A stretch of DNA of 32,505 bases from Bacteroidota bacterium (lineage in GTDB: Bacteria; Bacteroidota; Bacteroidia; Chitinophagales; LD1), in contig CANJVG010000026.1 in assembly GCA_947478005.1 (NCBI GenBank), positions 1 to 32,505 of the forward strand, given 5' to 3'. How positions within the stretch are numbered: the first letter of the stretch is position 1; each line of letters begins with the position of its first letter. The notes under the pieces were generated by a model, which ran no database searches, was not told the DNA's origin, and worked only from the letters and a program-made list of their open reading frames with translations. This document shows positions 21,072 to 32,221 of the stretch, piece by piece. The translations under genes were made by a program, and so were the position numbers.

Positions 21072-22184
21072 CTACTTCGCCATCATCTTCAGACATTCAT
21101 GCAGATTATTGAGTCCGATGGTTAGTTCTTCGAGGGTAGGGTAGCCGAAGCCAATGCGCATGTAGGTTTTATCGCGTTCGAACCAATGGCCGGGGCCTAC
21201 GATGGTGGCGTAGTTGGTGAAGAGGGTTTCGTAAAATTTTTCAGCATCCAGTTTATACTCTGCTTTGAGGCGAGGGAAACAGACTACTCCTGCCTCGGGT
21301 TCTATCCATTCTAAATAATTCTGTTTCTCGAACCATTGTTTGAAATTGGCGAAGTTGGTGCGGATGTGGGCGTGATTTTTTTCGAGCAGAACGGTTTTGT
21401 TTTCGAGCAGATGAAAAGCTATTTCTTCATCTACGACTGAATTGCAAAGGCAGATTTGTTCTTTGGCGGCCAGAAAATCGTGCATTAGTTTTTCATCGCG
21501 GCAGATGAGCCAGCCGATGCGGATGCCGGGGGCACCGAAGGATTTGGAGACGGAGGAGACGGAAATTACATTGGGGGATAGTCCGGCAAAGTAGGGCTGG
21601 AGGGCGGTTTGAAAATTTAAATCGCGGTAGGTTTCATCTACGAGCAGGCGGCAGTTTTTTTCTTCTGCCAGATTAATCAGTTGTTTTATTGTTTCTGTAT
21701 CGAAGAGTTTGCCCGTTGGGTTGTGGGGGTTGGTAATGCTGATGAGTTTTGTGTTTGGACGGATGGCTTTTCTTATTTCTTCTACATCAATACTGAATTG
21801 ATTTTCGAATTTTAAATCAATGATGCTCAGTTCGCAGTTGATGGCGCGCGGTGTTTCGAGGTTGGTGGCGTAGTTTGGGCGAATGACGATGAGGTGGTCG
21901 GTGCTGTTGAGGAGGGTTGTGGAAACTATGAAGAGTGCGGTGGCGGCTCCGGTGGTGACGAGCACGTCCGCGGGGGTGAGGGAGGTCGTTTCTTGGATGA
22001 TGGCTTCGCGGAGTTTGAGGAGGCCTTTGTGTTCACCATAAAAGAGAGTGAGGTGATTGAGGTCTAGGTTTAGGTCGCGCAGGTTTAGGTCGCGCATGGA
22101 GCTTTCTGCCAGGTTGTAGCGGATGTTGGAGTAGCCCATTTCTTCGGGCGATTCTATTTCGATGGGCATTCGCGAGTATCTCAT
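21072..22184 (-). CDS. PLP-dependent aminotransferase, class I/II fold
   Basis: 370 residues of fold-type I. VLVTTGAATALFIVSTTLLN forms the phosphate-binding loop, VIRPNYATNLETPRA the substrate side, ISITNPHNPTGKLFD carries the conserved NPHNPTG, LLVDETYRDL has D183 for the pyridine nitrogen, SVSKSFGAPGIRIGW has K214 as the Schiff-base lysine, and MRIGFGYP supplies the C-terminal arginine that binds the substrate carboxylate. The substrate (an amino acid of unknown kind) cannot be decided. An exact 15-bp tandem duplication encodes RDLNLRDLNL at residues 31-40. The region is G-rich on the plus strand. It stands 84 bp upstream of thyA on the same strand, but the thyA box suggests a separate promoter. 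Confidence 0.9.
   Translation of the reverse strand: MRYSRMPIEIESPEEMGYSNIRYNLAESSMRDLNLRDLNLDLNHLTLFYGEHKGLLKLREAIIQETTSLTPADVLVTTGAATALFIVSTTLLNSTDHLIVIRPNYATNLETPRAINCELSIIDLKFENQFSIDVEEIRKAIRPNTKLISITNPHNPTGKLFDTETIKQLINLAEEKNCRLLVDETYRDLNFQTALQPYFAGLSPNVISVSSVSKSFGAPGIRIGWLICRDEKLMHDFLAAKEQICLCNSVVDEEIAFHLLENKTVLLEKNHAHIRTNFANFKQWFEKQNYLEWIEPEAGVVCFPRLKAEYKLDAEKFYETLFTNYATIVGPGHWFERDKTYMRIGFGYPTLEELTIGLNNLHECLKMMAK
22066..22095 (-). repeat. Exact 15-bp tandem duplication inside the aminotransferase gene
   Basis: AGGTTTAGGTCGCGC (plus-strand spelling) occurs twice back to back. It adds five in-frame residues (RDLNL repeated) near the N-terminus. The identity of the copies suggests recent slippage. 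Confidence 0.85.
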
Positions 22185-22890
22185 GAGGACGGTTTTAATT
22201 TTGGTGATGGGGGCGAAGATAGAGGAAGTGAGGGAACTGGTGGGCGAGGAATTGGAGTTGGGGACAGGATTTGCGGAAGCTCGGATTTTCTTTTAGGAAA
22301 TGGAGAAAAGATTAAGGCGGATATTAAAATTCTTTTGGCGAATTAAGATTTTCTGATGGCGGAGATAAAATTCAGGAAGGCGGATAATGTTTTTCTTTAG
22401 GCGGATGTTAAATTCCGAATGGCGGATAACGATTTCCGGATGGCGGACGGAAAATTCGTCTTGGCGGGTGGAAAATTCGTCCGATGGGATGGGGGTTTTT
22501 GATATCCGGGTAGGGTTTAAATACAGATAAGCCACGAATTTCACGAATTGAAACAAATTAACCGTGATTGAATGACCGGCATAGTATGAAGGGCGGCTCT
22601 TCTCTTCCCGCGCAATGGATGACGGAATGTAATTGGGACAGGGTGGGTTAGCGATTGCAGTAGAAATCCTTTTCTGATTTGCCTGAAGGGCAAAAATAGC
22701 TACCTCCGTCTTGCTCAGAGCAACGAGCCACCACTAGCGGAGGACAAAATACAGCAAAAAAAGATTACTCATGCTATAATTGATTTAGAAAAGAATTCGT
22801 GAATCGCTTCGCTTATTTGGAACGGAAAGCCCCGATCGCGCCTTGCGGGAACCCACTGATGATTGGTGTCAGGAATGGGTGTTTGCCGGT
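22185..22890. other. 706-bp gene-free stretch: 21-bp repeat plus a structured, formerly coding-looking element
   Basis: No standard gene. The minus strand is open from 22733 to 22293 (147 codons) but has only a TTG at 22556 as possible start. Its upstream half reads VALSKTEVAIFALQANQKRI, then PPCPNYIPSS, protein-like but unrecognised; its downstream half is the 21-bp repeat. CCTCCG (22703-22708) and CGGAGG (22738-22743) pair around an inner TTGCT/AGCAA hairpin. TTTGCC-TGAAG-GGCAAA near 22678-22694 is another stem. Together these look like a decayed or dispersed repeat element. Confidence 0.5.
22315..22482. repeat. Eight tandem copies of a degenerate 21-bp unit
   Basis: Units begin exactly every 21 bp at 22315, 22336, 22357, 22378, 22399, 22420, 22441 and 22462. 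Each opens WGGCGRRT-like (plus strand, TGGCGGAT/AGGCGGAT) and continues with an A/T-rich AAAATTC-like half. On the minus strand this reads as a heptad, xEFxIRH/L/Q, within an open frame that lacks a good start codon. The core GGCGG is conserved also at wobble positions, which points to selection or copying at DNA level rather than protein level. More degenerate copies may continue toward 22270. It lies between the aminotransferase start and the transporter stop. Confidence 0.85.
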
Positions 22891-31985: not shown

Positions 31986-32221
31986 TCGACATTCGTCTAT
32001 TGGCCCTATGGTTTCCATAGAGGGTCTCGACATTCGTCTATTGGCTCTGTGGTTTCCAACGAGGGTCTCGACATTCGTACATTGGTTCTATGGCTTCCAT
32101 AGAAGGCCTCAACATTCGTCTATTGGTTCAGTGGCTTCCATAGAGGGTCTGGACATACGTCTATTGGTTCTATGGTTTCCATAGAAGGTCTCGACATTCG
32201 TCTATTAGCTCTATGGCTTCT
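31986..32221. repeat. 41-bp tandem repeat, five full copies and one partial
   Basis: Units begin exactly 41 bp apart at 31986, 32027, 32068, 32109, 32150 and 32191 (the last stops near 32221). Each reads approximately TCGACATTCGTCTATTGG, then YTCTATGGYTTCCATAGARGGTC. CTATGG-TTT/CTT-CCATAG is a hairpin, perfect in units 1, 3 and 5 and damaged in units 2 and 4. Stops occur in all frames because 41 is not divisible by three, so the array is not coding. It fills most of the 533-bp gene-free stretch 31834-32366, between the DUF1573 promoter and the last gene. There are no spacers, so it is not a CRISPR array. The remaining flanks are AT-rich. Confidence 0.92.

Follow-up and report, generated by a model that had tools for sequence, protein, structure and literature searches.

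The DNA analyzed here, referred to as the window, is a 32,505-nucleotide stretch of contig CANJVG010000026.1 from a Bacteroidota bacterium (Chitinophagales; LD1; assembly GCA_947478005.1). A short-period tandem array sits in it between two minus-strand genes, one of which was named by eye as aminotransferase-like; in the genomes of six other members of the genus, the orthologous gene lacks an upstream array. Read from the sequence, the plus-strand cores of the array start at 22316, 22337, 22358, 22379, 22400, 22421, 22442 and 22463, the last ending at 22467, and the spacing of all eight is exactly 21 bp. Across the 706-bp intergenic stretch, lag 21 was the best of lags 15–40, with an identity of 0.655 over 84 bp compared with a maximum of 0.524 among 300 first-order Markov shuffles. 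Core positions and autocorrelation confirm the eight units at exact 21-bp spacing that an earlier note on this DNA had described. That note also held the core GGCGG to be preserved in every unit, which is correct for seven cores but not for the one at 22337, where the sequence is GGCGA. TRF reported a period of 42 at 22336–22457 and of 21 at 22441–22481, and a weak 42-bp super-period is visible in the alternation of AAATTC and GATTTC.

Along the minus strand, each unit consists of CCGCC, a variable stretch, a GAATTT or GAAATC block and a second variable stretch. One decayed in-phase unit stretches the array to ~22300–22488. The TCGGACGAATTTTCC part of the leading unit (Table 1) was found again on contig C47 of the same genome and on G001:C21, in both at the point where the array starts, as well as within the array on contig C94. 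Just beyond the array, at 22530–22550, a CACGAATTTCACGAATT stretch is shared with the C47 copy and, we assume, resembles a dispersed motif. Rfam, applied at the gathering score to the whole window, matched a tRNA alone and assigned the array to no known RNA family. A second tandem array in the window (31986–32220, TRF) is built of 5.7 copies of a 41-bp unit with an internal palindrome, CTCTATGG...CCATAGAG.

Table 1 Features at the array locus in the window.
Feature	Positions	Strand	Basis
Eight-unit 21-bp array, CCGCC core on the minus strand	22300..22467	-	Sequence, TRF, autocorrelation against shuffles, 82–87% sister copy on C47
Leading unit CCCATCGGACGAATTTTCCAC	22468..22488	-	Sequences
87-aa frame from a TTG start, reading as IR heptads; not considered a gene	22293..22556	-	ORF list; substitutions and stops against
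264-bp extent aligning without gaps to the C47 copy (same genome)	22296..22559	-	BLAST alignment
Aminotransferase-like gene (named by eye), start 115 bp beyond the array	21072..22184	-	ORF and neighbourhood

The array has copies elsewhere, as expected of the dispersed repeat that the earlier note had considered; they were recovered both by BLAST of its own genome and by profile searches of relatives. The gap-free copy on C47 has an identity of 87% across the 191-bp query and of 82% across 264 bp; C94 carries shorter pieces of the window array. A profile built from the arrays (R1) matched 11 of the 18 genus genomes at E-values up to 0.01 and, at 1e-4, 10 of 298 genomes in an order-level sample, nine of which belong to this genus. 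A broader profile (R2) matched nine of the 18 genus genomes at 0.001 and, at 1e-5, four of 395 genomes in a phylum-level sample, the own genome included; the other three gave (CCGCCAT)n 7-bp repeats in two cases and a weak stretch in one. These 7-bp repeats (L159, L160 and L161) are intergenic, and 7 × 3 = 21. Where several profile hits fell within one array, all were in one 21-bp phase, as checked by hand. An orthologous array has been retained before the same gene in G014 and G015, where 147 bp align without gaps at 12 differences. Scanning named species genomes with the window unit pattern gave five loci, of which only CAMBIM010000021.1 (titled a Chitinophaga pinensis MAG) is an array, the other four being lone matches.

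Arrays seem to be copied whole, because two 13-unit arrays on different contigs of one genome (L152 and L153 in G009) carry nearly the same units in the same order. At L153, a 1134-aa ORF with a beginning that looks Cas9-like by eye lies 408 bp from the array. The array on C94 (L010 2000–2470) continues in frame into a short ORF, as though it had cut into a gene; the ORF begins like what we take to be a heme-binding SOUL protein. The G-poor strand of the arrays is usually the sense strand: at co-directional sites, a hand tally counted the CCGCC strand as sense 12 times and the reverse three times. Despite this bias, a promoter-only location was rejected, because arrays also occur between divergent genes (~7) and between convergent genes (~6). 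The G-poor strand also raises Rho-type loading on C-rich RNA as a candidate reading.

An open IR frame in the first core arrays, together with a plus strand that looks amphipathic and coiled-coil-like, led us to weigh coding seriously. In the window, the minus frame is indeed open from a TTG start, as had been noted. The window and C47 arrays differ at 24 of 168 bases, split 8/8/8 over the codon positions and with none in the five core bases; in the IR frame, two codons changed synonymously and 16 non-synonymously. The comparison that the earlier note had proposed for detecting a heptad protein, synonymous against non-synonymous change between copies, therefore gave no excess of synonymous change. 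Over six array pairs (a seventh, G4a/G4b, with 59 mismatches and one in the core, was left out of the sum), 172 mismatches were distributed as 59, 67 and 46 over the codon positions, and the core held 16 against 41 expected. Among 25 non-redundant arrays, stops occur in every frame; the IR frame holds five against a prediction of 10.6 from column composition, and composition thus accounts for most of its openness in the window. Eleven further arrays contain 11 IR-frame stops. In addition, some equivalent places are occupied by arrays of 22 bp, a period that rules out codon repeats. Coding on either strand was dropped on the substitution pattern, the stop codons and the 22-bp arrays. The class to which the window array belongs is non-coding, and the earlier preference against a gene is upheld by the even substitutions and by the stops in related arrays.

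Variability within the unit instead follows the helix turn. Over the 21 columns, it has minima near columns 21–5 and 12–14 and maxima near 8 and 17–18. A 10.5-bp harmonic accounted for 51% of the variance (P 0.0018, column permutation) and a 3-bp harmonic for 0.3%, and in ten arrays found later with R2 and held out, the shares were 47% (P 0.0033) and 0.7%, both P values being approximate because the permutation assumes exchangeable columns. Within single arrays, the helix-turn share exceeded the codon share in 36 of 39. Three doubtful arrays (C90, G4c and G4d) were excluded from the variability and non-redundant stop tests and are included among the 42 arrays considered below. Since the harmonic lies at 10.5 bp, the constraint reads as concentrated on one face of B-DNA, and each unit in the class has two conserved blocks about one turn apart with variable DNA between them. 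No dyad symmetry was found in the units; because they are not palindromic, binding, if it occurs, would be directional. Neither strand showed an excess of RNA folding across 31 arrays (mean z about -0.2).

Eight of the 42 arrays sit 18–545 bp away from genes of one protein family, a partner that the earlier note had not anticipated. Genomes of the genus contain between zero and seven matches to this family. The genome of the window has one, on C47; this gene has no array upstream, and the sister of the window array lies ~0.5 kb downstream of it. The window array itself does not adjoin any family gene. Arrays and family occur together in eight of the 18 genus genomes and are both missing from eight, with arrays alone in G015 and the family alone in G003, a co-occurrence that is weak as a test because the genomes share descent. 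G079, a genome of another family, likewise has arrays and no detected family gene.

Members of the protein family combine an N-terminal domain of ~220–240 aa with a variable C-terminal part. The N-terminal consensus includes the motifs YxCxQxELYS, NMPAxF, KIxANN, DGQxIF and FVW; it has no Pfam match common to the members and no match in NCBIfam, PADLOC, PHROGs or PDB that would name it, PADLOC matching none of seven members. Some C-terminal parts match CarboxypepD_reg, and others appear by eye to be FN3-like domains or proline-rich tails; no signal peptide was apparent by eye. Phages, plasmids and viral contigs yielded no relative of the proteins searched, and the C47 protein had no match in the plasmid collection. 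Because no neighbouring gene cluster, the family itself aside, recurs in more than four of 27 loci, the module looks like one gene plus one array. A profile of 26 N-terminal domains added five genomes of the phylum sample that encode distant relatives.

We then compared the 800 bp upstream of family genes with shuffles at lags 15–40. Genes were taken as longest ORFs rather than from a gene finder, the genomes being mostly drafts, and hits missing the N-terminus were left out. An array was present upstream at 35 of 46 family loci, with a period of 21 in 30 and of 22 in five; no other period among the lags tested occurred at these 35 loci, and the remaining 11 had no array above threshold. The count leaves out L185 (the same gene as L169). 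L192 and L194 share an array by descent; at L164, the array is short and escaped the lag test, L215 has no upstream DNA, and L180, where a (CTCCCAT)n repeat lies upstream of a family gene, is a 7-bp repeat scoring at 21. With the eight seed loci removed, which had been picked for array proximity, 29 of 38 loci retained an upstream array. Of 50 control genes (six aminotransferase orthologues, 15 window genes and 29 thyA genes), none had one. Distances from array to start codon ranged from 18 to 589 bp across 29 positive loci. Downstream arrays were found at seven of 43 loci, five with period 21. For the distant relatives, lag 21 was best at all seven loci with upstream DNA, and six exceeded the threshold, the exception being the AT-rich L211.

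The unit sequence is mostly unrelated between family loci, and family genes with no profile match nearby also carry 21-bp arrays, whose sequence is unrelated. The likeness of arrays increases with that of the proteins (Mantel r 0.34 against protein identity; 0.21 with P 0.0045 for pairs below 60% identity), yet at 81% protein identity an array likeness of only 0.51 was seen. In 14 family-adjacent arrays outside the first set, the half-unit harmonic took 0.298 of the variance against 0.098 expected, a value reached in none of 3000 permutations, and the codon harmonic was not raised. In summary, arrays lie upstream of most members of the family, from the genus to distant relatives in the phylum, with a fixed period and a mostly unrelated sequence.

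We therefore describe the window array as one of the solitary members of a non-coding, helically phased class whose 21- or 22-bp, two-turn units are tied to this protein family and may serve as a protein platform, a reading that we hold somewhat likelier to be right than wrong. The earlier preference for a phased protein-binding array or a dispersed repeat over a gene is well served by these data, in that copies are dispersed, the frame is not conserved as protein and variability follows the helix turn; binding itself is putative. The window array is probably such a putative platform for the family protein. Mechanistically, the protein, or a partner, would bind along one DNA face, unit after unit, and the array upstream would act as an operator or nucleoprotein platform for the family's own gene, with a binding specificity that drifts quickly. 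Solitary arrays such as that in the window could be additional targets for action in trans, or remnants of modules that have since moved; for the window array itself, action in trans is a guess. More broadly, the patterns in sequence could reflect an undescribed two-part module of Bacteroidota, in which a protein reads its own fast-evolving, two-turn upstream array, the two specificities change together and solitary arrays are trans targets, as a regulon or a self-marking platform. We put this wider proposal at a little below an even chance.

The strongest competing explanation is a neutral or selfish dispersed minisatellite that grows by slippage, is copied between intergenic sites, has no function and shares its cores through descent alone. 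Arrays within one genome are often mutual copies, sites differ between species and are missing from the aminotransferase orthologues, and the flanking genes have no functional theme that we could see by eye, all of which suit such an element. It sits poorly with a period fixed at 21 or 22 bp in unrelated sequences upstream of one family across the phylum, with variability tied to the helix turn, with a core depleted of substitutions and with long alignments that stay gap-free despite many mismatches (in one case, 271 bp aligned without a gap at 41 mismatches). We consider this explanation unlikely, though deserving of attention.

Improbable, and a step further down, is an RNA-level system in which the array is transcribed and cut into 21- or 22-nt units bound by the family protein, in effect a small system styled like TIGR or the repeat-RNA antitoxins. 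The make-up of the unit (two conserved and two variable blocks), the adjoining single protein gene and the usual sense orientation of the G-poor strand (12 to 3) would fit it. Against it stand the lack of folding excess on either strand, the family's lack of a Nop domain match and the variable blocks themselves, which, at ~4–5 nt, lack the length needed for guides and are mutual variants, not random sequence. A translated heptad-repeat protein, read either from the IR frame (open in the arrays of C47, C94, G001:C21 and the window and in others found first) or from the plus-strand AExKF-like frame that looks by eye like an amphipathic 3-4 heptad, albeit interrupted by stops, is very improbable given the substitutions, IR-frame stops and 22-bp arrays described above and the absence of a 3-bp signal from column variability.

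Returning to the phased platform, the gene family retains arrays of two-turn units ahead of it even as the unit sequence is lost and remade, and this pattern, period kept and sequence lost, escapes ordinary homology searches. A conserved repeat length, an unconserved repeat sequence and a single unnamed family point to a protein–DNA recognition pair with fast turnover of specificity. A literature search, with most subscription journals outside its coverage, found no published description of this pairing of array and protein family.

Several known systems share parts of this arrangement. Plasmid replication iterons are direct repeats, spaced by about two helix turns, that precede the gene encoding their binding protein. 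The present arrays are likewise two-turn direct repeats upstream of a gene, but the family has no replication-initiator match, the sites are many and chromosomal, and the C47 protein is unmatched among plasmids. In type III toxin–antitoxin loci, a repeat RNA antitoxin lies upstream of an endoribonuclease gene and the repeats act as RNA. The pairing of tandem repeats with a single protein gene is similar, whereas the folding results and the lack of PADLOC matches set our class apart. TIGR-Tas systems place arrays of 8–12-nt repeats and 9-nt spacers, yielding 36-nt RNAs, beside Nop-domain proteins (PMC12045711). They resemble our class in setting an array next to a single protein gene, in having two conserved and two variable blocks in each unit and in repeats that differ between loci; in contrast, our units span 21 or 22 bp with ~4–5 variable bases per block, and no Nop family appeared among Pfam matches up to E 0.1. 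In ParR/parC, tandem repeats lie upstream of the gene for the binding protein, whose dimers align on them, and repression of the promoter is possible (PMC5016525). Our class shares the tandem repeats in one locus upstream of a protein gene; it differs in that the family has no ribbon-helix-helix match in Pfam and no conserved neighbouring motor gene (ParM), repeats at different loci are for the most part unrelated in sequence, and solitary copies occur elsewhere in the chromosome. The array class thus departs from TIGR-Tas, ParMRC and repeat-RNA toxin–antitoxin loci in the defining features tested. By analogy, we infer that the array would work most like a partition-site or iteron array.
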